The translations under genes and the position numbers were made by a program. The notes beneath the pieces were generated by a model. It did not search any database, was not told the origin of the DNA, and worked only from the letters and a program-made list of their open reading frames with translations. From Intrasporangiaceae bacterium URHB0013 (GTDB lineage: Bacteria > Actinomycetota > Actinomycetes > Actinomycetales > Dermatophilaceae), in the NCBI GenBank assembly GCA_000620545.1, contig KK211150.1:539423-603422 (forward strand): a DNA stretch of 64,000 bases. Direction: 5' to 3'. How positions within the stretch are numbered: position 1 is the stretch's first letter; every line of letters starts with the position of its first letter. Below are positions 15,345 to 35,602 of the stretch, one piece after another.

Positions 15345-15414
15345 ACCGGCCCGACGACCGACCAGCGTGCCCCTGAAACCCTTGGCCCGCACCACTTCTG
15401 AGAGGAACCGACCG

Positions 15415-16347
15415 ATGGCCGAGTCCAAGGCCCGCAATCCCGACGACCGCTACAGCAAGCTGACGATCGGCGTCTGTCCGGACCAGTGGGGCGTCTGGTT
15501 CCCGGAGGACGAGAAGCAGATCCACTGGGAGACCGCGCTCGACGAGATGGCCGAGGCCGGCTTCTCGGTGATGGAGACGGGGCCGTTCGGCTACTTCCCC
15601 AAGGACCCGAACCGGCTGCAGGAGGAGATGGACCGGCGCGGCTTCACGGTCGTCGCCGGCACCGGCTGGGGCATCCTGCACAAGCCGGAGGCCTGGTCCG
15701 ACACGGAGAAGACGTTCCGCGAGATCGCCGAGACGCACGCCGCCGTCGGGGCGCAGTACATCGTGCACCTGCCCCCGATGTTCCGCGACGAGAAGACGTG
15801 GGCCTACACGGACGACCGCGTGCTCTTGACGCAGGCGTGGAACGCCTACATCCGCAACGCCGACAGGCTCGGCCGCATCATGAAGGAGGACTACGGACTC
15901 CAGATGGTGCTGCACCCGCACGGCGACAGCCACATCGAGACGCCCGAGGACATCGATCGCGTCTTCCAGGCGACCGACCCCGACTACGTCGGCTTCTGCC
16001 TCGACACGGGCCACATCGTCTACGGCGGCGGCGACCCGGTGGAGCTGTGCCGCACGTACCCGGAGCGGATCTCCTACGTCCACATCAAGGCGATGGACGA
16101 GGGCCTCGTCAAGCAGGCCCACGACGAGGACTGGCCGTTCGGCCTGGCCGTCGCCAAGGGCTGCTCGGTCGCGCCACCCGCCGGCGCCCCCGACATGCCT
16201 ACCTTCGTCGAGGCGCTCGCCGACCTCGACAAGGAGCTCTACGTCGTGTGCGAGCAGGACATGTATCCCTGCGACCCGTCGGTCCCCCTGCCCAACGCCA
16301 TCCAGACCCGCGAGTACCTCGCGTCCATCGGCCTCGGCCTCGAGTGA
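15415..16347 (+). CDS. Sugar phosphate isomerase/epimerase-fold protein, probable inosose dehydratase
   Basis: A 310-residue xylose-isomerase-like TIM barrel. Metal-binding strands are visible: [46 protein letters not shown] and ELYVVCEQD, giving the usual Glu/Asp/His/Glu site. In this operon the expected missing step is 2-keto-myo-inositol dehydration (IolE), which uses this fold, but the sequence is not close enough for me to exclude an IolH/IolI-type isomerase. ATG 15415 has AGAGGAA eight bases upstream. It is followed 16 bases later by iolG2. Confidence 0.8.
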
Positions 16348-16363
16348 CCGAGGAGTCACGCAG

Positions 16364-17368
16364 ATGACCGTTCGCATCGGCATGATCGGCCCCGGGGGCA
16401 TGGGACAGGCGCACATCGACCGCATCCACAGCGTCATCGCCGGGGGGCGGGTCGTCGCGGTGTCGGACGTCGACGAGACCCGGGCCAAGGAGGTGGCAGA
16501 CCGCATCGGCGGCACGGCCTACGCGGACTCGGCCGGCCTCATCGCGTCCGAGGAGGTCGACGCGCTCATGATCTGCAGCTACGGCCCGGCCCACGAGGTC
16601 GACGTGCTCGCCACCATCGCGGCCGGCAAGCCCGTCTTCTGCGAGAAGCCGCTGACGCCGACGGCTTCGGGCGCGATGCGCATCATGGAGGCCGAGGAGG
16701 CGGGCGGTCGCCGACTCGTCACGGTCGGCTTCATGCGGCGCTTCGACCGGAGCTACCGCGAGATGAAGGCGCTGCTCGACTCGGGCGACCTCGGCGAGAC
16801 GCTCATGGTCCACTGCGCCCACCGCAACCCGACCGCGCCCGAGACCTACACGTGGGACATGGCGATCAACGACACCGCGATCCACGAGGTCGACACGATG
16901 CGCTGGCTCCTCGGGGAGGAGTTCGTCTCGGCGCGCGTCGACAAGCCGAAGAAGACGTCGCTGCGCTTCGAGCACCTCCAGGACCCCCTGGTGCTGATCC
17001 TCGAGACCGAGTCGGGCGTGCGTGTCGACGACGAGATCTTCGTCAACTGCCAGTTCGGCTACGACATCCGCTGCGAGGCCGTCGCCGAGAAGGGCACGGT
17101 GTCGTTGAGCGACCAGAACGCGGTCGTCGTGCGCGACGGCGCCGGCGTGCGCAACGCGATCGCGCGCGACCACAACGACCGCTTCTGGGGCGCCTTCGTC
17201 ACCGAGGTGCAGGAGTGGGTCAGCGCCGTCGCCGTCGGCGAGCACACGGGGCCGACGTCATGGGACGGGTATGCCGCCGCGTGCGTCTGTGACGCCGGTG
17301 TCCGCGCGCTCACCGACGAGGGCGTCGTCAAGGTCGAGATGGCGGCGAAACCGGCCTTCTACGCCTGA
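16364..17368 (+). CDS. iolG: Gfo/Idh/MocA family inositol 2-dehydrogenase
   Basis: A 334-residue NAD-dependent dehydrogenase: Rossmann motif GPGGMG (9-14), EKPLTPT near residue 95, and the catalytic D/H pair in [17 protein letters not shown]. It resembles myo-inositol 2-dehydrogenases of actinomycete iol operons and may be the main enzyme making 2-keto-myo-inositol, with the copy at 9457 acting on another isomer. AGGAG lies eight bases before the ATG. It is the last gene of the operon and ends 17 bases before a convergent VOC gene. No iolA/mmsA gene follows. Confidence 0.9.
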
Positions 17369-21852: not shown

Positions 21853-22713
21853 TCAGTGGCTCGGCGGTGCCGTGTCGAGCAGACGCCGTGACGCCTCCAC
21901 GTGGGGCGGCAGGCGCCGTCTGGCCCGCAACGCGGCCGGGATCCTCGGCACGGCTGCGAGCAGGCCGCGCCTACCGTGGGGGCCGCGCGCCGTCCGCGCG
22001 GCGGTGCGGACCACCTGACTCACGGGGCGACGCATGATGGCCGTCAGCATCTGGTTGCGGGCGATGACGACATGACGTCCTGGCACGTCACGGACCACCG
22101 AGGGCACGTGTCGGGCCACCACCTCTGGCACGTAGCAGAGCGACCACCCGTGGGCGGCGAGGTCGAGTGCGAGCCGCTCCTCCTCGCCGGCGAAGAAGAC
22201 GACCGGGTCGAAGCCACCGGCCTGGAGGTAGGCCGACCGTCGCACGACCGCGCCGCAGGCGATGAAGCCCAGCACGCGCATGCCCGGCTCGCCGGGGTGG
22301 GTGCCGAGGGCGGACTGGGACATCTCGGCACAGACAGGCTCGAGCGAGCCCGCGGCGCCCACGAGGATGCGGGCTGCGATCAGGCCGACCCGAGGGTGGG
22401 CGTCGAGCAGGTCGGCGGCGCGGTCGAGCGCGCCCGGCTCCCACCACGAGTCGTCGTCGGCGAACGCGACGTACGGGGTCTCGACCGCGGCCAGACCGAC
22501 GTTGCGGCCCACCGCTCCGGCGTTGCGTGGCAGCCGGATCACGGTGACGTCGGGGAACGCGTCGGCCACGCGCGCCGGGGTCGAGTCCGTCGACCCGTTG
22601 TCCACGAGCACGACCGGCGCCGGGTCGTGACGCGGCAGGCTCTGCCGGAGGTCCTCCCAGCGGTCTCGTGTGGCGACGACGACGGTCACACGCCCGCCGT
22701 GGTCGGGGTTCAC
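21853..22713 (-). CDS. Family 2 glycosyltransferase
   Basis: A 286-residue GT-A fold glycosyltransferase: TVVVATRDRWEDLRQSLPRH, the nucleotide-binding VLVDNGSTDST, PRNAGAVGRNVG and the metal-binding AFADDDSWWEPG, then FFAGEEERLALDLAAHGW as the likely catalytic-base region. The start is GTG 22713, overlapping the stop of the upstream GT4 gene (GTGA); GTG 22689 is an alternative. It is the last gene of the minus-strand trio ugd-GT4-GT2, so it probably adds a sugar (possibly GlcA or xylose) to the glycan made by the locus. The C-terminal ~50 residues are basic and may contact the membrane. Confidence 0.88.
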   Translation of the reverse strand: MNPDHGGRVTVVVATRDRWEDLRQSLPRHDPAPVVLVDNGSTDSTPARVADAFPDVTVIRLPRNAGAVGRNVGLAAVETPYVAFADDDSWWEPGALDRAADLLDAHPRVGLIAARILVGAAGSLEPVCAEMSQSALGTHPGEPGMRVLGFIACGAVVRRSAYLQAGGFDPVVFFAGEEERLALDLAAHGWSLCYVPEVVARHVPSVVRDVPGRHVVIARNQMLTAIMRRPVSQVVRTAARTARGPHGRRGLLAAVPRIPAALRARRRLPPHVEASRRLLDTAPPSH

Positions 22714-23765
22714 GAGGCGTCCACCGGGAGCGCGCCGGAGCCAGCGGATGCGTGTGGCGCACGGGTCGGGTTCACGTCGGGGGCGACCTCCGCGTCTCGG
22801 ACGACGTCGCTGAGGACGGCGTCCCAGTCGCGCAGGAAACGGCGCAGGTCGAAGCGGCGCAGTGCGTGAGCGCGGGCGTCCTCGCCGACCGCGCGAGCCA
22901 GGTCGACGTCGTGGCACAGCTTCCGCAGGCCGGCCGCCAGCTCGTCCGGCCGGGTGCTCACGATGCCGGTGCCTGCGGGCACGGCCACCGCGCTCTCCGT
23001 GCTCGCCACCACGACGACGGGCATGCCGAGGAGCATCGCCTCGACGAGCGACAGGCCCAGGGAGGTCCACCGGTTGGGGTGGAGGTACACCCGCCGTCTC
23101 GCCATCTCGGCGTGGAGCCGCTCCTGGTCGAGACCCTCGACGGTTGTCAGCTCGGGAGGCACGCCCGGCAGCGTCCGGAGCAGGTGCGCGTCGATGCCGA
23201 ACACGTCGATCGGTTGGTGGCGCGCGAACCCCAGCACGAGGTCGGTCCCGACCGCCCTCCCACGACGGACGGGTTCGTTGACGACGACGGCCGCGTGGGC
23301 GAGTTCGCCGGTGTAGCGGTGACCTGGGTCCGGCACGCCGTGCTCGATCACCCTGAAGGGCGCCGAGCCGTTGTCCCAGAGCAGGGCGTTGAAGTGGGTC
23401 ACGTGGACCAGCGGGATGCGGCGTTGCTCCGCCATCGGGTGTCGGTCGAAGGGCACCCGGCCCCCGGGCACGTTGTGCTCGAGGTAGACGGCTGGCACGT
23501 CACGTCCGGGCACCCGACCGGTCCACGCCCGCACGAGCTCCGCCTCGTGCGGGCGCTGCAGCACGACGACGTCGATCTCCTCCTCCCGCAGGCGTTCGGT
23601 GGAGACCTCGCGGGCCCGTGACGGCCAGTCCCAGGACTGAGCCCGGCCGGCGCCGTCCGGGCCCCGGCCGGGAAGGACCGGCAGGACGTAGTCGTGTGGT
23701 CCCTGGACGAATCCCGTCGTCCAGGATCCGTGCACGTGCCAGATCAGGATGCGCACGGCGGTCAC
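22710..23765 (-). CDS. GT-B glycosyltransferase (GT4 type)
   Basis: A 351-residue GT-B fold transferase. The N-terminal half starts VRILIWHVHGSW and contains VYLEHNVPGG; the C-terminal half has the donor-binding region YLHPNRWTSLGLSLVEAMLLGMPVVVVASTE, in which the usual E-x7-E is partly recognisable. The GTG start at 23765 overlaps the ugd stop by four bases. The extreme C-terminus (about 320-351) is Ala/Pro-rich and probably disordered. Translational coupling to ugd suggests use of, or coupling to, UDP-glucuronate-derived donors; acceptor unknown. Confidence 0.85.
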   Translation of the reverse strand: MTAVRILIWHVHGSWTTGFVQGPHDYVLPVLPGRGPDGAGRAQSWDWPSRAREVSTERLREEEIDVVVLQRPHEAELVRAWTGRVPGRDVPAVYLEHNVPGGRVPFDRHPMAEQRRIPLVHVTHFNALLWDNGSAPFRVIEHGVPDPGHRYTGELAHAAVVVNEPVRRGRAVGTDLVLGFARHQPIDVFGIDAHLLRTLPGVPPELTTVEGLDQERLHAEMARRRVYLHPNRWTSLGLSLVEAMLLGMPVVVVASTESAVAVPAGTGIVSTRPDELAAGLRKLCHDVDLARAVGEDARAHALRRFDLRRFLRDWDAVLSDVVRDAEVAPDVNPTRAPHASAGSGALPVDAS

Positions 23766-25117
23766 CCGGCCCTTCGGGCGGTGTCGGCCGGCGGCCACGG
23801 GTCACCCCGTCCGAGGGCATGCACGGTCCAGCCGGCGCGCGTCCACCGATGCGGGTCGAGGACGAGCCGCCCGTCGACGACGACGCGTCGGGCCACCACG
23901 CTGCCCAGCGCGACGGGGTCGAGCGCGGCGAACTGCGCCCACTCCGTCAGCACCAGCGTGAGCTCCGCGCCGTCACAGGCGGACTCGACGGTGTCTCGGG
24001 TCTCGAGGTCCGACCTTCCGGACAGGTGTCGCCCGGCCTCTGGGTCGTGGACACGGACGCGTGCGCCCACGGCGGCGAGCGAGGTCGCGACCGAGAGCGC
24101 CGGGGAGTCGCGGATGTCGTCGGAGTCCGCCTTGAAGGCGGCCCCCAGCGCGGCGACCCGCCTGCCCCGTGGGCGCCCGTCCAGCAGCCGCGTCGCCAGG
24201 TCGACGGTGCGCTGGCGCTGATAGGTGTTGACGTCGTCGACGGCTCCGAGGAGCTGGGCGGCCGTGTCGACGCCGAGCTCCCCGGCCCGGCTCGAGAAGG
24301 CCCGCAGGTCCTTGGGGAGGCAGCCACCTCCGAACCCGATGCCCGGGGAGAGGTACTGGGGCCCGATGCGGGAGTCGAGCCCGAGGATCTCGGTCAGGCG
24401 CCCGATGTCGGCGTTCGCCGCCTCGCACACCTGCGCGAGGACGTTGACCACGGAGATCCGGCTCGCCAGCATGACGTTCGCCGAAGCCTTGGCGAGCTCT
24501 GCCGTCTGCAGGTCAGTCCTGACGACGGGCACGCCGTCGGCGAGGAGGCGGCAGTAGACGGCCCGTAGGCGGGCCTCGGCTGCATCGGAGGCGGTCCCGA
24601 GGACGAGGCGGTCCGGCCGCAGCGAGTCCTCGACCGCATGGCCCTCGCGGAGGAACTCCGGGTTCCAGGCCACCTCCACGCCATGGTTCGGTGGGGTCAG
24701 GTCGTCGATGCGCTCCTGCAGCAGCGCCGCCGTGCCCACCGGTACGGTCGACTTGCCGACGACCAGGGCATCGCGGCCCAGCTCCGGCGCCAGCGCCTCC
24801 ACGGCCGCCCAGAGGGCGCTGAGGTCTGCGCCGTCGGCACCGTCGAGCTGCGGGGTGCCGACACAGAGGAAGTGCACGTCGGCACCGTCCACCGCGGCGA
24901 CGTCCGTGCTGAAGGTGAGCCGCCCGGAGGCGACGCCCTCGCGCAGCAGGTCGGCGAACCCCGGTTCATGGAAGGGCGCCACGCCCCGGGAGAGCAGGTC
25001 GACACGGTGCGGGTCGACGTCGACCCCCGAGACGATGTGTCCCCACCGTGCCAGCGCCGCCGCATGCGTCGCGCCGAGATAGCCGGTTCCGAGCACTGAG
25101 ATGCGCACGGAGAACAC
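23762..25117 (-). CDS. ugd: UDP-glucose 6-dehydrogenase
   Basis: Oxidises UDP-glucose to UDP-glucuronate with two NAD+. The protein has 451 residues, a Rossmann motif GTGYLG, the TVPVGT loop, the NPEFLREG substrate motif, the central helix with AELAKASANVMLASRIS, and the catalytic cysteine in FGGGCLPKD. GTG 25117 is the longest plausible start; GTG 25108 (giving MRISVLGTG) fits the family equally well and neither has a strong ribosome binding site. It is the first gene of the minus-strand trio. The product feeds the UDP-glucuronate decarboxylase at 34550, giving UDP-xylose. Confidence 0.95.
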   Translation of the reverse strand: MFSVRISVLGTGYLGATHAAALARWGHIVSGVDVDPHRVDLLSRGVAPFHEPGFADLLREGVASGRLTFSTDVAAVDGADVHFLCVGTPQLDGADGADLSALWAAVEALAPELGRDALVVGKSTVPVGTAALLQERIDDLTPPNHGVEVAWNPEFLREGHAVEDSLRPDRLVLGTASDAAEARLRAVYCRLLADGVPVVRTDLQTAELAKASANVMLASRISVVNVLAQVCEAANADIGRLTEILGLDSRIGPQYLSPGIGFGGGCLPKDLRAFSSRAGELGVDTAAQLLGAVDDVNTYQRQRTVDLATRLLDGRPRGRRVAALGAAFKADSDDIRDSPALSVATSLAAVGARVRVHDPEAGRHLSGRSDLETRDTVESACDGAELTLVLTEWAQFAALDPVALGSVVARRVVVDGRLVLDPHRWTRAGWTVHALGRGDPWPPADTARRAG

Positions 25118-25210
25118 ATGCCCGGTGAGCCGAGAGCCAAACGTGGCGGCTCCGCAACGGCCGTTCGCGACGTGCCGTCGAGCGTGGATCTCGTGTCAAA
25201 GCATCCGAAG

Positions 25211-25280
25211 CCACGCGTGGAGAACCACTTCTCCGCCGAGAAGCGGTTTGACGAGCCGAGAAGTGGGCACCGCTTCTCCG
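25211..25280. promoter_or_regulatory. Cluster of four inverted 11-bp motifs plus a palindrome
   Basis: In the divergent gap between ugd and the carbamoyltransferase gene, a motif close to CCGCTTCTCGG occurs four times in alternating orientation: CCACTTCTCCG (25225-25235), CCGAGAAGCGG (25236-25246), CCGAGAAGTGG (25256-25266) and CCGCTTCTCCG (25270-25280). The perfect palindrome CCACGCGTGG (25211-25220) precedes them. The copies can pair in several ways as RNA, or serve as operator sites for a dimeric regulator of the whole glycan locus. Confidence 0.6.
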
Positions 25281-25311
25281 AGACGACCATCCTCGCTGAC
25301 ATCGGAGGCCC

Positions 25312-26943
25312 ATGAAGGTACTCGGGATCAACGCGCTCTTCCACGACCCGGCGGCTGCCCTCGTCGTGAACGGGGTCACGGTCGCCGCCCTCGAGGAGGA
25401 GCGGCTCACGCGACGCAAGCACGGTCATCGGCCGGTTCCGTTCGCCGCCTGGGAGCTTCCCGAGCTGGCGGCGCGATGGTGCCTGGAGAGTGCCGGCATC
25501 GAGCCGGCCGACCTCGATGCCGTTGCGTACTCGTACGATCCGGCCCTTGCCGAGCCGAGTGACCAATTGGGTCTGGACGACCCGTGGGACCATCTGCGTC
25601 AGACCTATGCCCGGCGTGCACCCGGTTTCATCGCGAGCGCCCTCCCGGGCCTCGACCCGGAACGAGTGCACTTCGTGCCCCATCACGTCGCGCATGCCGC
25701 CTCCGCCGCCCTGGCCGGACCCGCAGCGGACACGGACGTTCTGGTGCTCGACGGGCGCGGGGAGTGTGCCAGTCACCTCGCGGGACACTATGCCGATGGG
25801 CAACTGAAAACGCTTGCGACGCAACGACTTCCACACTCCTTGGGTCTGCTCTATGAGGACGTGACCCAGCACCTCGGCTTCCTCCGCAGCAGCGACGAGT
25901 ACAAGGTCATGGCGTTGGCGTCCTACGGCACACCCACGTTCGCCGACGTGCTGCGCCGCGCTGTGACCGCGGCACCCGACGGCGGGTTCCGCACCGAGCC
26001 GGTGGAATGGGACGCGTTGGCGCCGCGACTGCGACCGGGTGACCCGTGGACGCAGCAGCATGCCGACCTGGCCGCGAGCGTGCAGGTCCGCCTCGAGGAG
26101 GTGCTGCTCGAGCTGGTCGGCTGGCTGCAGGACCGCACGGGCGCCCGGCAGCTCGCACTGGCGGGCGGCGTCGCGCTCAACTGCGTCGCGAACTCCCGGC
26201 TGCACGCGGACGGGCCGTACGACGACGTGTGGGTGCAGCCGGCTGCCGGCGACGCAGGCACGGCCCTCGGCGCGGCGCTGACCGTGGCGACCGACGGCGG
26301 TGACCGGTGCGCACCCATGCCCGGCGCCGACCTGGGCCGCTCGTGGGACGACGACGACCTCGAAACGGTCCTCCGGACGGCACGCCTGCCCTACGAGCGC
26401 TCGGGTGACGTCGCCGGTGCGGTGGCGTCGGTTCTCGCAGCAGACGGCATCGTCGCCTGGTTCCAGGGCCGCAGCGAGTACGGTCCTCGTGCCCTCGGGC
26501 ACCGGTCGCTGCTGGCGCACCCGGGTCGGGCCGAGAACCTCGAAAGGCTCAACGACGTCAAGGGGCGCGAGCAGTTCCGCCCTGTGGCCCCCATGGTCCG
26601 AGTCGAGCGGGCGGCAGAGATCTTCGGACGCGGTCCGCTCCCCTCGCCCTACATGCTCTTTGTCCACGACGTGAATCCCGAGTGGCGCCAACGCATCCCA
26701 GCCGTGGTGCATGTCGACGGGACGGCCCGGGTCCAGACGGTCGACGCGGCACAGGAACCGCTCGTGGCACGGATGTTGGAGGCCTTCGAGAGCCTGACGG
26801 GTGTCCCGGTCGTCGTCAACACCAGCCTCAACACCGCAGGGCGGCCCATGGTCGACAGCCCTCGCGACGCCCTCGAGTGCTTCGGTTCCGCGCCGGTGGA
26901 CCTCCTCGCGCTGGGACCGTTCGTCGTGAGGCGGCCCCGGTGA
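25312..26943 (+). CDS. NodU/CmcH family carbamoyltransferase
   Basis: A 543-residue enzyme of the family that moves a carbamoyl group from carbamoyl phosphate, via carbamoyl-AMP, to a hydroxyl of a sugar or antibiotic. The N-terminal Kae1/TsaD-like domain has VLGINALFHDPAAAL, the metal site HHVAHAASA and the nucleotide motif LALAGGVALNCVANS. The C-terminal domain has YGPRALGHRSLLAHP and VVVNTSLNTAGRPMV. GGAGG precedes the ATG. It opens the eight-gene coupled operon (GTGA overlap with the next gene), so the acceptor is most likely a sugar of the heptose-containing glycan. Confidence 0.93.
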   Translation: MKVLGINALFHDPAAALVVNGVTVAALEEERLTRRKHGHRPVPFAAWELPELAARWCLESAGIEPADLDAVAYSYDPALAEPSDQLGLDDPWDHLRQTYARRAPGFIASALPGLDPERVHFVPHHVAHAASAALAGPAADTDVLVLDGRGECASHLAGHYADGQLKTLATQRLPHSLGLLYEDVTQHLGFLRSSDEYKVMALASYGTPTFADVLRRAVTAAPDGGFRTEPVEWDALAPRLRPGDPWTQQHADLAASVQVRLEEVLLELVGWLQDRTGARQLALAGGVALNCVANSRLHADGPYDDVWVQPAAGDAGTALGAALTVATDGGDRCAPMPGADLGRSWDDDDLETVLRTARLPYERSGDVAGAVASVLAADGIVAWFQGRSEYGPRALGHRSLLAHPGRAENLERLNDVKGREQFRPVAPMVRVERAAEIFGRGPLPSPYMLFVHDVNPEWRQRIPAVVHVDGTARVQTVDAAQEPLVARMLEAFESLTGVPVVVNTSLNTAGRPMVDSPRDALECFGSAPVDLLALGPFVVRRPR

Positions 26944-28463
26944 CGAGAGACCGCGCGGAGGACGGACCCACCCGGACGACGATCGTCGTGCCGACGGTCG
27001 GACGCGAGAGCCTGCAGACCTTGCTCGAGAGCCTGGCGGCGCAGTCCACGCGCGTCACCGCGCCCGTCCTGCTCGTCGACGACCGCCCGGGAGGGCACGA
27101 CCTGGGCCCGCCGGCGCGGCTCCGCGAGCTGCCCTTCGACGCCACGGTGCTCACCAGCGGTGGACGTGGCCCCGCCGCGGCGCGCAACCTCGGCTGGCGG
27201 CATGCCCGTACCCCGTGGGTCTCCTTCCTCGACGACGACGTCCTGCCCGGACCGACCTGGTACGCGGACCTGCTCGAGGACCTTGCCGCCTCGGGGCCCG
27301 AGGTCGTTGGCAGCCAAGGGCACGTTCAGGTGCCGCTGCCGACCGACCGCAGGCCCGACGACTGGGAACGCTCGACGGCCGGCCTCCAGGGGGCGCCGTG
27401 GATCACGGCCGATCTGTCGTACCGGCGCTCGGCGCTCGCCTCCGTGGGAGGCTTCGACGAGCGCTTCCCACGGGCCTACCGGGAGGACGTCGACCTCGGG
27501 CTCCGGGTCACCGCCTCGACGGGACGCATCGACTGGGGGCGCCGTCAGGTCCTCCACCCCGTCCGGCCGGCCGACGGCTGGGTGAGTGTGCGGCGGCAGG
27601 TCGGAAACGTCGACGACGCGCTCATGCGCCGGCTGCACGGCCGGGACTGGCGAGTGCGCGGACACGCACCGCGGGGCCGGCTGCGTCTGCACTCCGTCAC
27701 GGCGGCCGCCGGCGTCACGGCCCTGGTCGCGACGCTGGCCGGTCGACGCCGTGCGGCTGCCGTCGCGGGGCTCGGCTGGGCAGCGCTGACAGCCCAGTTC
27801 GCGGTCGCTCGCGTGCGTCCCGGACCGCGCCATGCCGCCGAGGTCGTCCGCATGACCCTCACCAGCGTCGTCATCCCCTTCGCCGCCGTGACGTATGCCG
27901 TCCGTGGACGGGTGCGGCACCGTCGGGCCGGGCCGTGGTGCGGGGCGCCCGACCTCGTCCTGCTCGACCGTGACGGCACCATCGTGCACGACGTCCCCTA
28001 CAACACCGACCCCGAGGCGGTACGGGCCATGAGCGGTGCCCGTGAGTCACTGGACCGCCTGCGTCACAACGGAATTCGTGTCGGTGTCGTGACCAACCAG
28101 TCCGGCGTGGGGCGGGGGATGATCAGCCCTGAGGAGCTCGACGCGGTGAACGCCCGGGTGCGAGAGCTGCTCGGACCGTTCGACGTCTGGTGCGAGTGCG
28201 TGCATGCGCCCGAGGAGGGATGCGCCTGCCGCAAGCCGGAGCCGGGCCTCGTCCTGGAGGCGTGCGCCCGGATGGACGTCGAGCCGCGTCGTACCGTCGT
28301 GGTGGGCGACATCGCCGGCGACGTCGCCGCGGCCCGCGCCGCGGGCGCCAGGGGCGTGCTCGTGCCCACCGGTGCCACTCGACGCGACGAGGTGGCTCGC
28401 GCTGCCGTGGTGAGGAGCGACCTCGGCTCCGTCGTCGACGACCTGCTGGGGGGTCGCTGGTGA
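26940..28463 (+). CDS. GT2 glycosyltransferase fused to GmhB-like HAD phosphatase
   Basis: A 507-residue fusion. Residues about 10-260 are a GT2 glycosyltransferase (TIVVPTVGRESLQTLLESL, GRGPAAARNLGW, metal-binding DDD at 98-100, YREDVDLGLRV). Residues about 262-320 hold hydrophobic stretches that may sit in the membrane. Residues about 335-507 are a D-glycero-D-manno-heptose-1,7-bisphosphate phosphatase: LDRDGT (342-347), VVTNQSG and the zinc motif CECVHAPEEGCACRKPEPG. It removes the C7 phosphate between the kinase and adenylyltransferase steps of HldE. The GTG start overlaps the upstream stop. Fusion of sugar-nucleotide synthesis and transfer is unusual. Confidence 0.9.
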   Translation: MTRDRAEDGPTRTTIVVPTVGRESLQTLLESLAAQSTRVTAPVLLVDDRPGGHDLGPPARLRELPFDATVLTSGGRGPAAARNLGWRHARTPWVSFLDDDVLPGPTWYADLLEDLAASGPEVVGSQGHVQVPLPTDRRPDDWERSTAGLQGAPWITADLSYRRSALASVGGFDERFPRAYREDVDLGLRVTASTGRIDWGRRQVLHPVRPADGWVSVRRQVGNVDDALMRRLHGRDWRVRGHAPRGRLRLHSVTAAAGVTALVATLAGRRRAAAVAGLGWAALTAQFAVARVRPGPRHAAEVVRMTLTSVVIPFAAVTYAVRGRVRHRRAGPWCGAPDLVLLDRDGTIVHDVPYNTDPEAVRAMSGARESLDRLRHNGIRVGVVTNQSGVGRGMISPEELDAVNARVRELLGPFDVWCECVHAPEEGCACRKPEPGLVLEACARMDVEPRRTVVVGDIAGDVAAARAAGARGVLVPTGATRRDEVARAAVVRSDLGSVVDDLLGGRW

Positions 28464-29551
28464 CCCACGTGCTCGTCGTGAGACTGGACAACGCCGGTGA
28501 CGTGCTCCTGGCGGGGCCGGCCGTGCGCGCCGTGGCGGGCGGCGCCGAGCGCGTCACCCTCCTGTGCGGGCCCCATGGCGCCGACGCGGGCCGGCTGCTG
28601 CCGGGCGTCGACTCGGTCGTGCAGTGGTCCTGCCCCTGGATCGACCCGGCACCGGCGCCCGTGGGGAACGAGGACGTGGACCGGATCATCGCCTCGGTCC
28701 GCGAGCTGGCCCCCGACCGGGCCCTCGTGCTCACGTCGTTCCACCAGTCCCCCCTGCCGACGGCACTGCTCCTGCGGTTGGCGGGAGTGCCGTGGATCGG
28801 CGCGGCGAGCGAGGACTATCCCGGCAGCCTCCTCGACCTGCGGCACCGTCCCCGCGACGGCCTGCACGAGGTCGAGCGTGCGCTCTCCCTCGTAGAGGCC
28901 GCCGGGTACGCCCTGCCCGTCGGCGACGACGGGCGCCTCGCCGTTCGGTCCCAGCCGCACCCACGGCCGCCGTGGTCCGCCGAGTTCGTCGTGCTGCACC
29001 CGGGGGCCTCGGTCCCCGCCCGGGCCTGGCCCGAGCACCACTGGCGCGACCTGGCCCGGCTGTTGGCCGAGCGGGGCGCACGGGTGGTCGTGACCGGAGG
29101 CCCCGGCGACTGCGCACTCACGCGCGGCGTGGCGGCGGCATACGGCAGCGGCGACGTCGTCGACCTCGGCGGGCGCACGTCGTTCGCCGAGCTCGCCGGG
29201 GTGCTGCGGGCCGCGTCCGTCGTGGTGGCGGCCAACACGGGCCCCGCCCACCTCGCGGCGGCCGTCGGCACCCCCGTCGTGTCACTCTTCGCGCCCACGG
29301 TGCCCTTCGAGAGGTGGCGCCCGTGGGGGGTCCCGGTCGTTGCCCTCGGGCGCGGTGACTCCCCCTGTCGTGGCACCCGGGTCACCGAGTGCCCGTTCCC
29401 CGGCCATCCGTGCCTGTCGGGGGTGAGCGCCGCCGACGTCGTGCACGCCCTCGACTCCCTCGCGCCTCGGGCGCGTACGTCCCACTCCTTCCCCGGCGCG
29501 TCGGCTGACGCCCCCACGCTTGTCCGGGCCATCCCAGGAGGTATCAGATGA
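28460..29551 (+). CDS. GT9 family (heptosyltransferase-like) glycosyltransferase
   Basis: A 363-residue GT-B protein related to ADP-heptose:LPS heptosyltransferases. The N-terminus VTHVLVVRLDNAGDVLLAGPAVRAV carries the acidic catalytic residue after a leucine-rich strand. VVLHPGASVPARAWPEHHWRDLARLL and the VVAANTGPAHLAAAVGTPVVSLFAP block are diagnostic for GT9. It is one of two GT9 proteins in the operon, consistent with a two-heptose or heptose-repeat structure. The GTG start overlaps the fusion gene stop, and its own stop overlaps the GT4 start (ATGA). The last ~25 residues look disordered. Confidence 0.9.
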   Translation: MTHVLVVRLDNAGDVLLAGPAVRAVAGGAERVTLLCGPHGADAGRLLPGVDSVVQWSCPWIDPAPAPVGNEDVDRIIASVRELAPDRALVLTSFHQSPLPTALLLRLAGVPWIGAASEDYPGSLLDLRHRPRDGLHEVERALSLVEAAGYALPVGDDGRLAVRSQPHPRPPWSAEFVVLHPGASVPARAWPEHHWRDLARLLAERGARVVVTGGPGDCALTRGVAAAYGSGDVVDLGGRTSFAELAGVLRAASVVVAANTGPAHLAAAVGTPVVSLFAPTVPFERWRPWGVPVVALGRGDSPCRGTRVTECPFPGHPCLSGVSAADVVHALDSLAPRARTSHSFPGASADAPTLVRAIPGGIR

Positions 29552-30750
29552 GGATCGCGATGGTGTCCGAGCACGCCAACCCGCTGGCCCTGCTCGGCGG
29601 CGCCGACGCCGGCGGCCAGAACGTCCACGTCGGTGCCCTGTCGGCGCAGCTCGCCGAACGCGGGCACGACGTGACGGTCTACAGCAGGTGGACCGCACCG
29701 GACGTGGCCGAGCGCGTGCGGACCCCCGAGGGGTACGTGGTCGAGCACGTGCCGGTGGGACCTCCGGAGGACGTGCCCAAGGACCACCTCCTGCCGTACA
29801 TGCCGGCCTTCGCCCGCTACCTCGAGGCGCGCTGGCGCGAGCATCCCGTCGACGTCGTCCATGCGCACTTCTGGATGAGCGGCGTGGCGAGCACCCGCGC
29901 TGCCAGGCACGTCGACGTCCCCGTCGTGCAGACCTTCCATGCGCTCGGGACGGTGAAGCGCCGCCAGCAGGGTGACCGCGACACGAGCCCGCCGGAGCGG
30001 CTCGGCATCGAGCGACGGCTCTGCCGACAGGTGGACCACGTGGTCGCGACTTGTACCGACGAGGTCGAGGAGCTCGGCCGGATGGGGCTGCCGGCGCGGC
30101 GCGCGACCGTCGTGCCGTGCGGCGTGGACACCGACCTCTTCCGGCCGTATGCCGTCGACCCCGCCCCGCGACCGAGGCTGCTCTCCGTGGGGCGGCTCGT
30201 CGAGCGCAAGGGCGTCGGCAACGCGATCGAGGCGCTCGCCGCCCTGCCGGACGTCGACCTCGTCGTCGCAGGCGGGCCGGAGCCGACCCGCCTCGACGAG
30301 GACCCGGAGATCCGACGCCTGCGCGAGGTCGCCCACCGTTGCGGTGTCGTGGACCGGGTCCGCTTCATCGGCGCTGTCGGCCGTGACGACGTGCCGCGCC
30401 TGATGAACGAGGCCGACGTCGTCGTGGCAGTGCCGTGGTACGAGCCGTTCGGGATCGTGCCGGTCGAGGCCATGGCCTGCGGGCGGCCCATCGTGGGGTC
30501 CGCCGTGGGCGGCCTGCTCGACACGGTGCTGCCAGGGCTGACCGGCGAGCTCGTGCCCCCGCGTCGTCCGGACCTGCTGGCGGGCGCGGTGCGCCGGCTC
30601 GTCGAGGACCCGGAACGTCGCGCGGCCTACGGGCGTGCGGGCCGCGACCGGGCGGTGGCGCTCTACCGCTGGTCCTGCGTGGCCGAGCGCACGGAGGACG
30701 TGTACGCCCGAGTCGCTGCTGCCGCGTCGCGACGGGCGGTCGCACCGTGA
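29548..30750 (+). CDS. GT4 family glycosyltransferase
   Basis: A 400-residue retaining GT-B enzyme. The N-terminal domain starts MRIAMVSEHANPL and has GGADAGGQNVHVGALSAQLAERGH, as in MshA/sucrose synthase-like GT4 enzymes, then HAHFWMSG. The C-terminal donor domain has the start LLSVGRLVERKGV and the E-x7-E motif in PWYEPFGIVPVEAMACGRP. A nucleotide-sugar donor is certain from the fold but its identity is not. It is coupled by four-base overlaps to GT9 and gmhA. Within the operon it probably adds a non-heptose sugar or a D,D-heptose. Confidence 0.9.
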   Translation: MRIAMVSEHANPLALLGGADAGGQNVHVGALSAQLAERGHDVTVYSRWTAPDVAERVRTPEGYVVEHVPVGPPEDVPKDHLLPYMPAFARYLEARWREHPVDVVHAHFWMSGVASTRAARHVDVPVVQTFHALGTVKRRQQGDRDTSPPERLGIERRLCRQVDHVVATCTDEVEELGRMGLPARRATVVPCGVDTDLFRPYAVDPAPRPRLLSVGRLVERKGVGNAIEALAALPDVDLVVAGGPEPTRLDEDPEIRRLREVAHRCGVVDRVRFIGAVGRDDVPRLMNEADVVVAVPWYEPFGIVPVEAMACGRPIVGSAVGGLLDTVLPGLTGELVPPRRPDLLAGAVRRLVEDPERRAAYGRAGRDRAVALYRWSCVAERTEDVYARVAAAASRRAVAP

Positions 30751-31382
30751 ACGCCGGCCGGACGACCTTCACGCCGTGCGACCACGAGCACCTGGCGGCG
30801 CTCATCGCCGCGACGGCGACCTTCAGCCCCTGCGTCGAGCTCGCCGACCGCTGGGGAGCCCGACTCGGCGAGGTGCTCGACCACGGGTCCCGACTGCTGG
30901 CTGCCGGCAACGGGGGCAGCGCCGCGCAGGCCCAGCACCTGACGGCCGAGCTCGTCGGGCGGTACCGCCTCGACCGCAGACCGTTCTCGGCGATCTGTCT
31001 GAGCGCCGAGACCTCCACCCTGACCGCCGTGGTCAACGACTATCCACCGGAGGAGCTCTTCGCGAGGCAGGTGGAGGCGCACGGCCGGGAGGGTGACGTG
31101 CTCGTCCTGCTGTCCACGAGCGGACGCAGCCCCAACGTCGTCGAGGCAGCCCGCCGAGGCCGTGAGCACGGCCTGACCGTCTGGGCCCTGACGGGGCCAG
31201 CTCCCAACCCGCTCGCCGAGGCCGCCCACGAGGCGCTCACCGTCGACGCCGAGTACACGGCCACCGTCCAGGAGCTGCACCTCGTCGCGGTCCACATCCT
31301 GTGCGCCGGCCTCGACCGGTTCCTCGGCGTGCTTCCCGCGCGCACGTCAGAGGACGTGCCACCCGTCAGGAGGCCCGCATGA
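30747..31382 (+). CDS. gmhA: Phosphoheptose isomerase
   Basis: A 211-residue SIS-domain enzyme that converts sedoheptulose 7-phosphate to D-glycero-D-manno-heptose 7-phosphate, the first committed heptose step. Conserved GmhA blocks are present: AAGNGGSAAQAQHLTAELVGRY (about 52-73, including the zinc-site His), NDYPPEELFARQVEAHG, LLSTSGRSPNVVEAA and the C-terminal TVQELHLVAVHILC with the catalytic Glu/His. The frame is open upstream, but GTG 30747 overlaps the GT4 stop and gives the normal length. The stop overlaps the hldE start. Confidence 0.92.
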   Translation: MNAGRTTFTPCDHEHLAALIAATATFSPCVELADRWGARLGEVLDHGSRLLAAGNGGSAAQAQHLTAELVGRYRLDRRPFSAICLSAETSTLTAVVNDYPPEELFARQVEAHGREGDVLVLLSTSGRSPNVVEAARRGREHGLTVWALTGPAPNPLAEAAHEALTVDAEYTATVQELHLVAVHILCAGLDRFLGVLPARTSEDVPPVRRPA

Positions 31383-32830
31383 GAGCGCCGCTCGTTCTCA
31401 TCGGCGACGCCCTCCTCGACGTCGACATCGAGGGCCACGCGAGCCGGCTGAGCCCCGACGCGCCGGTGCCCGTGCTCGACGACCTCGTCGAGCGGGCCCG
31501 CCCCGGCGGAGCCGCCCTGGCCGCCGCCCTGGCGCACCGCGACGGTGTGGACGTCGTGCTCGTCACGGCGCTCGGCGACGATGAGGCAGGCCGGCGCCTG
31601 CGACACCTGCTGGACGGCGTCGAGGTGGTCGCCCTCGACGCCCGCGGCGCGACGCCCGTCAAGCGCAGGGTCCGTGCGGACGGCCAGTCCCTCGTCCGCC
31701 TCGACTCCGGCGGTGTCCCGGGCGGAGTCGCAGCGGCACCGCAGCGGGCGCTCGACGCGGTGCGCGCAGGCGGCGCCGTGCTCGTGTCCGACTACGGCCG
31801 CGGTTCCGTGGATGCCGAGGGCCTGCGTGACGTGCTCGTCGACGTCGCGGGTGACATCCCCGTCGTCTGGGACCCGCACCCCCGCGGTGGGGAACCGACG
31901 CGCGGTGCCCGGCTCGTCACACCCAACGAGGACGAGGCAGCGGTCCTGGCCGCCCGCCGGGGGCTCGAGACGCAGGGCCCGCGTCACTCGCTCGTCAGCG
32001 TCCGTCGGCGTGCGGAGGCGCTGGGACGGGTGTGGCAGTCACGCGGCGTCGCCGTGACGCTCGGCGCCCGCGGCGCGCTCCTGACCTACGGCGCGGGCAC
32101 CCCGGTGCTGGTCCCCGCCCCGGACGTGCCGTGCGTCGACGCGTGCGGGGCGGGGGACCGCTTTGCCGTGTCCGCGGCGGTCGCCCTCGGCTCGGGCGCG
32201 GTCATCGCCGACGCCGTGGCCGAGGGCGTGCGTCGCGCGGCCCGGTACGTCGCCGGAGGCGGCCCGGCCGTGCTCGACCAGCACACCGGTGCCTCGCCCG
32301 CCTGGCAGACCCTGGGCGATGCCGGAACGGGCGCCACCGGCGGCACGGGAGACCGGGAGGATCGCCGGCCGACCGTCGTCGCGACCGGCGGCTGCTTCGA
32401 CCTGCTGCACACGGGTCACGTCGAGACCCTGCGGGCGGCCCGCGCCCTGGGCGACCGGCTCGTGGTGTGCCTCAACTCCGACGCCTCGGTCCGCCGCCTC
32501 AAGGGACCGGGACGCCCGATCGTTTCCGAGGCCGATCGTGCGCGCGTGCTGCTGGCCCTGGAGTGCGTCGACGAGGTCGTCCTCTTCGACGAGGACACGC
32601 CCGTCGAGGTGCTGCGCCGCGTGCGCCCTGCGATCTGGACGAAGGGCGGCGACTACGCGGGCGCCGAGGTGCCGGAGCTGGCCGTCCTCGAGGAGTGGGA
32701 CGGACAGGCCGTCGTGCTGCCGTACGTCGAGGGCCGCTCGACGACGGCCATGGTGGCGGCGGCCTCGGGGCCGGGTGCCGCACCGCTAGGAGCGGCTTCT
32801 GCCGCACGAACCGAGAGGAGTGACGCATGA
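31379..32830 (+). CDS. hldE: Bifunctional heptose 7-phosphate kinase / heptose 1-phosphate adenylyltransferase
   Basis: A 483-residue two-domain enzyme. Residues about 1-315 are a PfkB-type kinase (LIGDALLDVDIEG, ARPGGAALAAALA, catalytic DACGAGDRFAVSAA) that makes heptose 1,7-bisphosphate. Residues about 335-480 are a nucleotidyltransferase with the HxGH motif in TGGCFDLLHTGHVETLRAA, then NSDASVRRLKG and the C-terminal VEGRSTTAMV, making ADP-heptose. With gmhA and the gmhB domain it completes the route to ADP-D-glycero-D-manno-heptose. The epimerase HldD, which makes the L,D form, is not seen, so the D,D form may be used directly. Confidence 0.93.
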   Translation: MRAPLVLIGDALLDVDIEGHASRLSPDAPVPVLDDLVERARPGGAALAAALAHRDGVDVVLVTALGDDEAGRRLRHLLDGVEVVALDARGATPVKRRVRADGQSLVRLDSGGVPGGVAAAPQRALDAVRAGGAVLVSDYGRGSVDAEGLRDVLVDVAGDIPVVWDPHPRGGEPTRGARLVTPNEDEAAVLAARRGLETQGPRHSLVSVRRRAEALGRVWQSRGVAVTLGARGALLTYGAGTPVLVPAPDVPCVDACGAGDRFAVSAAVALGSGAVIADAVAEGVRRAARYVAGGGPAVLDQHTGASPAWQTLGDAGTGATGGTGDREDRRPTVVATGGCFDLLHTGHVETLRAARALGDRLVVCLNSDASVRRLKGPGRPIVSEADRARVLLALECVDEVVLFDEDTPVEVLRRVRPAIWTKGGDYAGAEVPELAVLEEWDGQAVVLPYVEGRSTTAMVAAASGPGAAPLGAASAARTERSDA

Positions 32831-33537
32831 CGACGTCGACAGTGGGGACCGTGCTCGTGACGGGCGGGGCCTCGGGCCTAGGGGCCGCCGTGGCGCGTGC
32901 GGTGGCCCGGGAAGGCGGTCGGCCGCTCGTCCTCGACCGGCGGATGCCGGAGCCGGGCACCGTGGACCTTCCGGAGGGGGACGTCGGCATCGTCGACCTG
33001 GCCGACCCGCGGGCGGCCGAGACGGCGGTGCGAGAGCTCGTCGAACGTGCCGGAGGGCTCGACGCCGTGGTGACGTGCGCCGGAACCGACGCGTGCGGCC
33101 GTTTCGACGAGGTGGCGGCGGCTGACTGGGAGCGCGTCGTCCAGGTCAACCTCATCGGCACGGCCGCCGTCGTCCGCGCCGCCCTCCCGTGGTTGCTCTC
33201 CGGCGGCGGGCGCGTCGTCACGGTCGCCTCGACCTTGGGGCTCCGGGTGCTCAGCGACGCAACCGCCTACTGCGCCTCGAAGTTCGGGGTCATCGGCTTC
33301 TCCCGGGCGCTCGCCGTCGAGACCCAGGGCCGCCTGGGCGTGACGACCCTCGTGCCGGGAGGCATGCACACGGCCTTCTTCGACGGCCGGCCCGAGCAGT
33401 ACCGGCCGGGACCTGACGCCAAGCTCAACCGGCCGGAGGACGTCGCGACGGCAGTCCTGTTCGCCCTTCGCCAGCCCCCGGGGTGCGAGATCCGTGAGCT
33501 CGTCGTCACGCCCTCGGTCGAGGGGTCGTGGCCCTGA
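32827..33537 (+). CDS. Short-chain dehydrogenase/reductase
   Basis: A 236-residue classical SDR: NAD(P)-binding TGGASGLGAAVA (about 14-25), the NNAG equivalent TCAGTDACG, a catalytic Ser in TVASTLG and the YCASK (Tyr/Lys) pair. There is no extended-SDR C-terminus, so it is not a standard HldD or epimerase. Being coupled to hldE (ATGA) and overlapping the next GT9 gene by ten bases, it probably oxidises or reduces a sugar nucleotide or sugar residue of the glycan; the substrate is not readable from sequence. Confidence 0.88.
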   Translation: MTTSTVGTVLVTGGASGLGAAVARAVAREGGRPLVLDRRMPEPGTVDLPEGDVGIVDLADPRAAETAVRELVERAGGLDAVVTCAGTDACGRFDEVAAADWERVVQVNLIGTAAVVRAALPWLLSGGGRVVTVASTLGLRVLSDATAYCASKFGVIGFSRALAVETQGRLGVTTLVPGGMHTAFFDGRPEQYRPGPDAKLNRPEDVATAVLFALRQPPGCEIRELVVTPSVEGSWP

Positions 33538-34553
33538 GCGGACGGGTCGTCGTCCTCCGGGCCCTCGGACTCGGGGACGTCCTGACGGCCGTGCCCGCGC
33601 TCCGTGCGGTCCGGCGCGCGCTGCCCGGTCACGAGGTCGTCCTCGCCGCTCCGGCGGTGTTCGCCGACCTCGTCGTGGCGCCCGACCTCGTCGACCGGGT
33701 GCAGCCCAGCCGGGGACTCGCGCCGGTCGAGTGGTCCGGCCCGCCACCGGACGTGGCCGTCAACCTGCACGGGTGCGGACCGCAGAGCCACCGTGTGCTG
33801 CTGGCGCTGAAACCGGCCCGTCTCGTGGCGTTCGCCTGCGCCGACGTGCACGTCCCGGGACCGCAGTGGGACCCCGGTGAGCACGAGACCCGTCGATGGT
33901 GCCGGCTCCTCGACGAGGCCGGCTGGCCGGCGGACCCGGGGCGGCTGGACCTGCCACCGACGCAGATCCCCAGCCCCGCGCCGGGCGCCGTCGTCATCCA
34001 CCCGGGTGCTGCTCACCCTTCGCGACGGTGGCCCGTCGAGCGCTTCGCCGCCGTGGCCCACTGGGCCCGACGGCAGGGTCACCGGGTCGTCGTCACCGGC
34101 TCGCCCGACGAGGTCAGCCTCGCTCGTGACGTGGCTCGCGCGAGCGGCCTCGGCAGCGGTGCCGTGCTCGCCGGACGGACCGACCTCGCGGGCCTCTCTG
34201 CGCTCGTCGCCGAGGCGCGGCTCGTCATCTGCGGCGACACGGGCGTCGCGCACCTGGCGTCGGCCCACGCGACCCCGTCGGTGGTCCTCTTCGGCCCGGT
34301 GCCACCCGCCGAGTGGGGACCGCCGAGGGCAGGCCCGCACACCGTGATCTGGCACGGCGCCGAACGGGCGCGGCAGGGTGGCCGGGGCGACCCGCTCGGT
34401 GCGGTCGTGGACCCGGCGCTCCTGCGGACGACCGTCGACGAGGTCGTCGAGGCGGCCCGTCAGCGACTCGTGACGTCGTCCTTCACCTCTGGGCAGGACG
34501 TCGGGCGGCACCCCGCCGGTCGGCGACGTGCCGAGGTGGTCTCGGACAGCTAG
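33528..34553 (+). CDS. Second GT9 family (heptosyltransferase-like) glycosyltransferase
   Basis: A 341-residue GT9 protein: VVVLRALGLGDVLTAVPALRAVRRALPG at the N-terminus with the catalytic-site Asp, then VIHPGAAHPSRRWPVERFAAVA and VICGDTGVAHLASAHATPSVVLFGP. It differs clearly from the GT9 at 28460, so the two presumably act on different acceptors. The GTG start lies within the SDR gene (10-base overlap). It is the last gene of the operon; its TAG stop shares the palindrome CTAG with the stop of the convergent decarboxylase gene, leaving no room for a terminator. Confidence 0.88.
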   Translation: MALSGRVVVLRALGLGDVLTAVPALRAVRRALPGHEVVLAAPAVFADLVVAPDLVDRVQPSRGLAPVEWSGPPPDVAVNLHGCGPQSHRVLLALKPARLVAFACADVHVPGPQWDPGEHETRRWCRLLDEAGWPADPGRLDLPPTQIPSPAPGAVVIHPGAAHPSRRWPVERFAAVAHWARRQGHRVVVTGSPDEVSLARDVARASGLGSGAVLAGRTDLAGLSALVAEARLVICGDTGVAHLASAHATPSVVLFGPVPPAEWGPPRAGPHTVIWHGAERARQGGRGDPLGAVVDPALLRTTVDEVVEAARQRLVTSSFTSGQDVGRHPAGRRRAEVVSDS

Positions 34554-35602
34554 GCGGCCGAGCGCAGCTGGTCCTCGAACCAGTCGAGGGTGCGACGCAG
34601 TCCCTCCTCGACCCCGACCCGCGGCCGCCAGCCGAGCAGCTCCTCGGCGCGGGAGGTGTCCGGTCGCCGTACGCGTGGGTCGTCCTCGGGCAGGTCCACG
34701 AACGTGATGGACGAGGTCGAGCCGGCCAGACGGCACACGGTCCGGGCCAGCTCGAGGACGGTGACCTCCTGCGTGCCGCCGAGGTTGACGGGACCGGGGT
34801 GGCCGCTCGCGGCGAGCGCGCGCAGGCCCTCGGTGGTGTCGCTGACGAAGCACAGCGACCGCGTCTGGCTGCCGTCACCCGTGACGGTGATCGGCTCGCC
34901 CTTGAGCGCCTGGGTCATGAACGCCGGGATCATCCGGCCGTCGTCGGCGCGCATGCCGGGCCCGTACGTGTTGAAGATCCGGGCGATGCCGGTGTCCACT
35001 CCGCGGCTGGTGCGGTAGGCCATCGTGAGGGCCTCTGCGAAGCGCTTGGACTCGTCGTAGACACTGCGCGGTCCGACGGGGTTGACGTTGCCCCAGTAGG
35101 TCTCGGGCTGCGGGTGGACGAGAGGGTCCCCGTAGACCTCTGAGGTGGAGGCCAGGACGAACCGGGCACCGTGGGCCTGGGCGAGGTCGAGTGCGTTCAT
35201 CGTGCCGACGCTCCCGACGAGCATGGTCTCGACGGGCAGGGCCGCGTAGTGGACCGGGGAGGCGGGAGAGGCCAGGTGCATGACCTGGTCGACGCGGCCG
35301 GGGACGTCGAGCGCCTGGGTGATGTCGGCCTGCACGAAGGTGAAGGCCGGGTGGGCGGCGAGCTCGTCCACCACCGACTGGCTGCCCGTGACGAAGTTGT
35401 CGACGGCGACCACCTCACAGCCGTCCCGCAGCAGCTGACGACACAGCCAGGCGCCGAGGAAACCGGCGCCACCGGTCACGATCACGCGCTGCGGTGACCG
35501 CTCACGCGGCTGGCCGGCGACCGCCTCGACGGGTGGAGCCGCACTCTGGGCCTGTTGCCGCAACGCGGGAGTGGCGTCCTGACCCACCGGTTCGTCTTCC
35601 AC
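34550..35602 (-). CDS. UDP-glucuronate decarboxylase (UDP-xylose synthase)
   Basis: An extended SDR of 350 residues that converts UDP-glucuronate to UDP-xylose using bound NAD+. It has TGGAGFLGAWLCRQLL, the DNFVTGS loop, the UXS-specific block around HPQPETYWGNVNPVG, catalytic YDESK, ARIFNTYGPGMRADDGRM and GSQTRSLCFVSD. With ugd it forms a UDP-Glc to UDP-GlcA to UDP-Xyl branch for the locus. The start is uncertain: the family core begins near 35500; I chose GTG 35602, which avoids the TauE gene, though it lacks a good ribosome binding site. It is convergent with the GT9 gene, sharing CTAG. Confidence 0.9.
   Translation of the reverse strand: MEDEPVGQDATPALRQQAQSAAPPVEAVAGQPRERSPQRVIVTGGAGFLGAWLCRQLLRDGCEVVAVDNFVTGSQSVVDELAAHPAFTFVQADITQALDVPGRVDQVMHLASPASPVHYAALPVETMLVGSVGTMNALDLAQAHGARFVLASTSEVYGDPLVHPQPETYWGNVNPVGPRSVYDESKRFAEALTMAYRTSRGVDTGIARIFNTYGPGMRADDGRMIPAFMTQALKGEPITVTGDGSQTRSLCFVSDTTEGLRALAASGHPGPVNLGGTQEVTVLELARTVCRLAGSTSSITFVDLPEDDPRVRRPDTSRAEELLGWRPRVGVEEGLRRTLDWFEDQLRSAA

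Follow-up and report, generated by a model that had tools for sequence, protein, structure and literature searches.

A probable rearranged homologue of the Streptomyces cwg operon, with predicted heptose, xylose and carbamoyl chemistry, in an Intrasporangiaceae bacterium

Identity of the locus

What would a Gram-positive actinomycete build with enzymes for nucleotide-activated heptose? The question arises from a 64,000-nucleotide stretch of the genome of Intrasporangiaceae bacterium URHB0013 (hereafter the window; GC 72%; genome G000, 4.57 Mb), in which an enzyme locus at 21853-35485 combines genes of heptose, carbamoyl and UDP-xylose metabolism. A sequence-only reading of the window had named gmhA, hldE, a gmhB domain, two genes of glycosyltransferase (GT) family GT9, a carbamoyltransferase, ugd, a UDP-glucuronate decarboxylase, further GTs and a short-chain dehydrogenase (SDR), and could match them to no described system. 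Profile searches of the window proteins (PF, TIGR and NF models with curated cut-offs) found every one of these genes, but the absence of a match did not hold: judged from its predicted proteins, the locus is probably (about 0.8) a rearranged homologue of the cwg operon of Streptomyces coelicolor, with a heptose-, xylose- and carbamoyl-containing product.

The cwg ("cell wall glycan") operon is said to have been a named sigma-E target since the founding work of Hong and colleagues in 2002. It comprises the 12 genes sco6179-6190, is controlled by sigma-E and induced by vancomycin, and its promoter sequence has been published (PMC6767563, Table 1). Annotated within it are transferases (sco6180, 6181, 6183, 6185 and 6188), a dehydratase (6182), a phosphoheptose isomerase (sco6186, cwgH) and a bifunctional synthase/transferase (sco6187, cwgI) (PMC5839063). 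That its product is a cell wall glycan is a prediction for S. coelicolor as well (PMC6767563; PMC5839063).

We searched for the published cwg promoter, a 29-mer with the gap removed, in 392 genomes of one genus and found it within 2 mismatches in seven, exactly in a single genome, G776. The genus is Streptomyces, since the promoter of its member G725 (C12:158872) has the same position as that in locus L101 of Streptomyces sp. DH41, and we infer that G776 belongs to S. coelicolor or stands very near it. The promoter in G776 ends at 2577 and the open reading frame (ORF) resembling UDP-glucuronate decarboxylase (UDP-xylose synthase, UXS) starts at 2725, leaving 147 bp between them, which matches the published spacing. 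Comparison of the window proteins by tblastn with this stretch of G776 (L161) gave twelve blocks in the order UXS, carbamoyltransferase (CARB), GT2, GmhB, GT9, GT4, GT4, GmhA, HldE, GT9, GT2 and GT2, with identities of 62, 72, 54, 57, 58, 56, 57, 59, 53, 57, 49 and 45%, respectively. Published names agree by position, with cwgH (isomerase) eighth and cwgI (bifunctional) ninth. Between HldE and the GT9 that follows it, some 750 bp had no assigned block, and two of the twelve blocks, the terminal GT2 pair, both matched a single window protein. The same gene order follows a one-mismatch promoter in Streptomyces sp. DH41 and in S. tendae (L106, where the sequence ends before the second terminal GT2) and a two-mismatch promoter in S. 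violaceorubidus (L097). The window locus is thus matched, at 45-72% protein identity, to an operon with the published cwg gene order and promoter in G776; for eleven of the twelve cwg-type genes a separate counterpart can be named in the window, the exception being the second copy of a GT2 type present here once.

The window genes lie in three strand blocks, at 21853-25108 (minus), 25312-34553 (plus) and 34550-35485 (minus). The middle block holds eight genes, for which overlaps of 4-10 bases had been claimed and were measured as 4, 4, 4, 4, 4, 4 and 10. It opens with a NodU/CmcH-type O-carbamoyltransferase of cwgB type (25312-26943; PF16861/PF02543; 330 bits to novobiocin carbamoyltransferase 9s2t), followed by a fusion (26940-28463) of a cwgC-type GT2 with a cwgD-type HAD domain behind it, identified by profiles and by a structure match as a GmhB-type heptose bisphosphatase. 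Next come the heptosyltransferase-like GT9a (28460-29551; cwgE type; PF01075 over cut-off; heptosyltransferase I 54 bits), the MshA-like GT4b (29548-30750; cwgG type, from profiles), the sedoheptulose-7-phosphate isomerase GmhA (30747-31382; cwgH type; TIGR00441; 1tk9 131 bits), the heptose-7-phosphate kinase/heptose-1-phosphate nucleotidyltransferase HldE (31379-32830; cwgI type; NF008454 and a structure match), the SDR (32827-33537; PF00106) and the heptosyltransferase-like GT9b (33528-34553; cwgJ type; PF01075 over cut-off). On the minus strand, GT2a (21853-22713; PF00535) corresponds to cwgK and cwgL, GT4a (22710-23765; PF00534) to cwgF, and Ugd (23762-25108), of UDP-glucose 6-dehydrogenase type, scored 375 bits with the nucleotide-sugar dehydrogenase model TIGR03026. 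The cwgA-type UXS gene (34550-35485, minus) matched human UXS1 (4gll) at 328 bits and the next different enzyme at 149 bits, which makes a strong case for a predicted decarboxylase; we propose its start at 35485 because homology begins there, and 35602 may be the start instead.

Set against cwg, GT2 and GmhB are fused in the window, the cwgF-type GT4 has moved beside an added ugd, the UXS gene stands last and on the opposite strand, and an SDR has been added. The window holds no single co-directional 12-gene run beginning with a UXS-like gene; because of its three strand blocks, the locus is a variant and not the cwg operon itself. Plasmid p65_CHABEC of Streptomyces sp. CA-256286 carries a similar run, annotated epimerase, carbamoyltransferase, GT, HAD, GT9, two GTs, SIS, rfaE2, GT9 and two GTs, but differs in being plasmid-borne, in keeping the Streptomyces gene order and in lacking ugd and SDR within the run.

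Recurrence and variation among actinomycetes

A scan of genome contigs by carbamoyltransferase alignment returned at least 579 loci, of which the best 80 were kept, and more exist; these 80 were retrieved with the carbamoyltransferase alone, and other genes were scored when in reach. The gene set, for which a search in other actinomycetes had been suggested, recurs: a seven-gene core of CARB, GT2, GmhB, GT9a, GT4b, GmhA and HldE stands together in 50 of the 80, and hldE and/or gmhA is in reach in 57, the remainder being 12 with carbamoyltransferase alone and 11 other partial cases, several on short contigs. This recurrence across actinomycetes places the gene set above chance. Genera with loci include Streptomyces, Nocardioides, Jiangella, Nonomuraea, Microbispora, Actinomadura, Actinosynnema and Rhodococcus, and among the matches listed the nearest complete locus in a named organism is that of Humibacillus xanthopallidus (L055; carbamoyltransferase 85%). 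Humibacillus belongs to the Intrasporangiaceae according to NCBI, and G076, the source of L042, is in the same family as G000. When 396 genomes of the phylum were drawn, 34 had a carbamoyltransferase match above 850 bits, the next match scoring 595 bits.

Several features of the window variant could be followed through these loci. GT2 and GmhB share a single open frame in 29 of the loci compared, Streptomyces not among them, and are split over two frames in 30, all from Streptomyces; a further 20, some cut by contig ends, had no GmhB match beside GT2. An SDR homologue of at least 55% identity accompanies 19 of the 80 best loci, none from Streptomyces. Ugd homologues are rarer: of 103 compared loci, 7 have one of at least 55% identity in reach (a single Humibacillus genome supplying two of the 7) and four more (L084, L099, L103 and L120) have one of 42-43%, or 11/103 in all. 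In Streptomyces loci and several others, the cwgF-type GT4 has GT9a on one side and GT4b on the other. In L084, L089 and L103 the HldE match is broken in two by an SDR match, which would suit separate genes for the kinase and the nucleotidyltransferase.

Neighbouring genes were clustered from 1491 ORFs of 104 loci, with the noise that high GC content brings to ORF prediction. Xanthine dehydrogenase parts, a permease, XdhC and a polysaccharide deacetylase are confined to L161 and loci named Streptomyces. Neighbours shared across genera are rare (GT2 in 7 of the 104 loci, epimerase 6, sigma factor 6, ABC ATPase 5, alcohol dehydrogenase 5), and we rejected conserved neighbours as core parts since none was general enough.

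The locus is accessory in its genus. Among nine genomes of the genus in a draw from the family, only G000 and G148 had an HldE match above 180 bits. The hydrolase and TauE genes that flank the locus lie 14 kb apart in the window and 3.9-5.3 kb apart in sister genomes (L226-L230), and in five of eight stretches no match to GT2a, CARB, HldE or UXS above 45% identity stands between those flanks, the other three stretches lacking one flank. GC content is 74-76% over 26000-35000, 70% in the 25000-27000 step and about 70-73% around. The pattern fits gain or loss of the locus as a block. Across 20 HldE stretches of the family, the carbamoyltransferase is also present in 11 and the match is partial in five; the remaining four (L031, L032, L033 and L038) carry a different HldE, 33-39% identical to that of the window, with no carbamoyltransferase in the stretch, and a second type of heptose locus seems to exist in the family.

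On one side the window locus is flanked by KduI/IolB, a thiamine-pyrophosphate enzyme and a MocA-type oxidoreductase (12430-17365), a patatin, DUF6529 and an alpha/beta hydrolase, and on the other by TauE, a pyridine-nucleotide disulphide oxidoreductase and others, all with functions unrelated to the locus. ARAGORN called a tRNA with a four-base anticodon (ggcg) at 2609-2697, inside a coding-like stretch; the call is probably spurious.

Promoter region and control

A candidate promoter/operator precedes the plus-strand operon (25220-25271, plus). It holds the near-palindrome GAGAACCACTTCTC (25220-25233) and GAGAAGTGGGCACC (25258-25271), together with, by eye, GTTT (25246-25249) and, after a 16-base gap, GGCA (25266-25269). 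In 28 sequences from non-Streptomyces loci inspected by eye, CARB was preceded by elements like GTTT-N16-GG(T/C)A and by a palindrome close to GAGAAGCGCTTCTC; the window copy of the palindrome departs from GAGAAGCGCTTCTC at 2 positions. Of 48 non-Streptomyces loci, 22 have GAGAAGCGCTTCTC within 2 mismatches and no more than 200 bp before CARB, where dinucleotide shuffles predict 0.05; the 48 include the 28 on which the motif was chosen, count one genome twice (L042 and L055) and contain the near relatives L039 and L040. The subset not used to choose the motif had it in 5/20. At the same threshold it was missing from 26 of the 48, Humibacillus included, and from all 12 loci with carbamoyltransferase alone. 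It is also a difference from cwg, as none was found in Streptomyces before UXS (0/33) or before CARB (0/34).

The GTTT...GG(T/C)A reading presumably recalls promoters of the SigB/SigF type. Sigma factor genes with regions 2, 3 and 4 are in reach of 6 of the 104 loci, from several genera (L037, L052, L065, L073, L093 and L114); in the L052 record the sigma factor is named as of the SigB/SigF/SigG family and lies beside PP2C, STAS and CsbD genes. As a lead, a sigma factor with regions 2-4 may fit the elements before the operons. A sigma-E pattern gave one looser match before CARB in the window, no stricter one, and none before ugd or UXS; in a control on 33 Streptomyces loci the pattern found 1 in its looser form and 8 in its stricter form, which makes it insensitive, and sigma-E may act in the window too. 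The comparison suggests that control of the gene set differs between lineages.

Searches of the window's own genome returned one exact site for GAGAAGTGGGCACC, that in the window, with 60 sites at up to 2 mismatches against 71 for the reversed control, and 38 places within 2 mismatches of GAGAAGCGCTTCTC against 34 for control. Further pathway genes sharing an operator in this genome were therefore rejected as candidates, the site counts being about control level and no regulon being seen. The search was also made in 12 other genomes. Sites within 1 mismatch turned up in 11 of them, the total of 51 places exceeding the 10 of the control, and some of these genomes probably have further operator sites. 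In G032, GAGAAGCGTTTCTC-like sites stand in tandem (L211:5660-5760) upstream of a gene for a solute-binding protein (PF01547); the cwg-type locus is a few kb away, and both may answer to one regulator. From the form of the palindrome, our guess is a regulator of LacI type. Repeats resembling GGGAAGTGGGCACT also occur in clusters in the window's genome, commonly at a spacing of about 32 bases (C12:179694-179866, C14:110365-110508 and C17:181584-182025).

Predicted product and its destination

The sequence-only reading had proposed a heptose- and carbamoyl-containing product with xylose or glucuronate, which profile and structure matches uphold at the level of enzyme families. Relatives of solved structure were matched for GmhA, both HldE domains, GmhB, the carbamoyltransferase and the first GT9. 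GmhA and GmhB align with solved enzymes over their catalytic regions, GmhB including the C-x-H...C-x-C segment, and the predicted ADP-heptose set of GmhA, HldE and GmhB is all present, aligned over its catalytic regions. Arginine in the fifth place of the motif (F/L)xxGxSTT lets the nucleotidyltransferase use other nucleoside triphosphates too (PMC11461863). The window HldE reads YVEGRSTT, with tyrosine in the first place and the arginine present, as it is in 35 of 46 sequences with an xxxGxSTT motif, among which are a few of the other HldE locus type; on this basis CDP- and UDP-heptose are predicted in addition. No protein of the genome reached the cut-off of the HldD model TIGR02197 (274.6 bits; best score 110.6), and because of this D,D-heptose would be expected rather than L,D-heptose. 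UDP-xylose is expected because UXS and Ugd are both present.

The same nucleotide-heptose enzyme families and GT9 transferases make up the lipopolysaccharide-core pathway (GmhA-HldE-GmhB, WaaC/WaaF), from which the window differs in its Gram-positive host and in having no HldD over cut-off. Carbamoylated heptose occurs in the Pseudomonas lipopolysaccharide core (WapO). The novelty of such a locus in a Gram-positive is weaker than had been claimed, with enzymes for nucleoside diphosphate (NDP)-heptose reported across kingdoms (PMC11461863) and sco6186 already annotated as a phosphoheptose isomerase (PMC5839063). Our literature search found nothing on heptose with a carbamoyltransferase in an actinobacterial cell wall, nor a chemical identity for the cwg product, which was described just as a predicted cell wall glycan.

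We infer the enzymatic steps, sugar order, acceptor, export and surface location as follows. A discrete oligosaccharide of about 5-6 sugars would be built in the cytosol on an acceptor from NDP-heptose and UDP-xylose, the two GT9 enzymes adding heptose and the GT2 and GT4 enzymes xylose and other sugars. The carbamoyltransferase would O-carbamoylate one residue, and machinery encoded elsewhere would place the oligosaccharide in the cell envelope. A short, defined product is suggested by the six GT domains together with the absence of a polymerase or transporter among the proteins scanned. A plain hydropathy scan gave peaks in GT4a, GmhA, HldE and GT9b, which we read tentatively as buried strands of soluble folds. 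Envelope-stress control of cwg in S. coelicolor makes the envelope the likeliest destination, and by this analogy we consider an envelope location somewhat probable.

Heptose supply in an actinomycete could instead serve a secreted, antibiotic-type metabolite. Hygromycin B, for instance, uses ADP-heptose. ADP-heptose also feeds septacidin in Streptomyces (PMC11461863), the closest PDB relatives of the carbamoyltransferase are antibiotic enzymes (9s2t, TobZ and GdmN), and some loci have a cytochrome P450 gene in reach. Unlike those clusters, the locus and flank proteins scanned included no scaffold-forming gene (nucleoside, aminocyclitol, polyketide synthase or non-ribosomal peptide synthetase), conservation from Streptomyces to Nocardioidaceae, Streptosporangiaceae-type genera and Actinomadura is wider than usual for an antibiotic, and the promoter in S. 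coelicolor responds to envelope stress (PMC6767563), so that an antibiotic cluster is highly improbable. Ugd adjoining GTs, typical of loci for capsule and wall polymers, and its 305 bits with the TuaD profile (cut-off 700) would accord with a polymeric capsule or a teichuronic-acid-like wall polymer; yet no polymerase, flippase, ABC exporter or LytR-CpsA-Psr ligase was seen among the window proteins scanned, and with Ugd in reach of so few of the compared loci we regard a polymer as very unlikely.

More can be said for a soluble intracellular or cofactor-like glycoside in the manner of mycothiol or mycofactocin glycans, as GT4b resembles MshA (218 bits) and the fused GT2 domain MftF (76 bits), both under curated cut-offs, and the locus has no transport gene. 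Against this, cwg of S. coelicolor is under sigma-E and is induced by vancomycin (PMC6767563), which points to the envelope, and we judge a soluble glycoside unlikely.

Several observations weigh against an envelope oligosaccharide of heptose, xylose and carbamoyl groups. Among the locus and flank proteins scanned there was no flippase, polymerase, ligase or lipid-carrier gene, and no transport gene recurred in more than 5 of the 104 loci outside the group with carbamoyltransferase alone and a purine-type permease found only in Streptomyces, for which reason a surface destination is unproven. Membership of GT9 is not proof of a heptose donor. GmhA and HldE score under their NCBIfam equivalog cut-offs (155 bits against 209 for TIGR00441, and 241 against 521 for NF008454, with both HldE domains aligned), although the families, judged by these alignments, are clear despite several such cut-offs being missed. 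Carbamoylation is not always tied to heptose, since the 12 loci with carbamoyltransferase alone (L076, L079-L082, L086, L104, L107, L112, L129, L132 and L133) have none of the other window genes in reach. Their enzyme is 70-73% identical, with the match at about 10001-11629 in most; they bear Geodermatophilaceae-type names, one record being labelled Bacillus, and have an acyl-CoA dehydrogenase (12/12), RecQ (9/12), LytR-CpsA-Psr (9/12) and also a solute-binding protein beside them, four neighbours that the clustering showed in this group alone. Finally, the cwg 29-mer is recognisable before UXS, at up to 7 mismatches, in just 9 of 34 Streptomyces loci, so that by this test sigma-E control of the homologues is not general.

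What stands is a conserved, real biosynthetic locus that is a variant of an already named operon. It is a tentative proposal, which we hold short of even odds, that cwg-type clusters make a class of Gram-positive envelope oligosaccharide not yet described, built on D,D-heptose and bearing O-carbamoyl groups and xylose, in many actinomycete families, controlled by sigma-E in S. coelicolor and near relatives and by a palindrome-bearing promoter, perhaps of SigB/SigF type, elsewhere, and that HldE may not be limited to a single nucleotide in activating heptose. The comparison gives the cwg-type product a concrete predicted chemistry, namely NDP-heptose, UDP-xylose and O-carbamoyl, and makes the gene set widespread in Actinomycetota rather than a Streptomyces peculiarity. 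Since NDP-heptoses are immune agonists (PMC11461863), Gram-positive producers of them matter beyond cell-wall chemistry.

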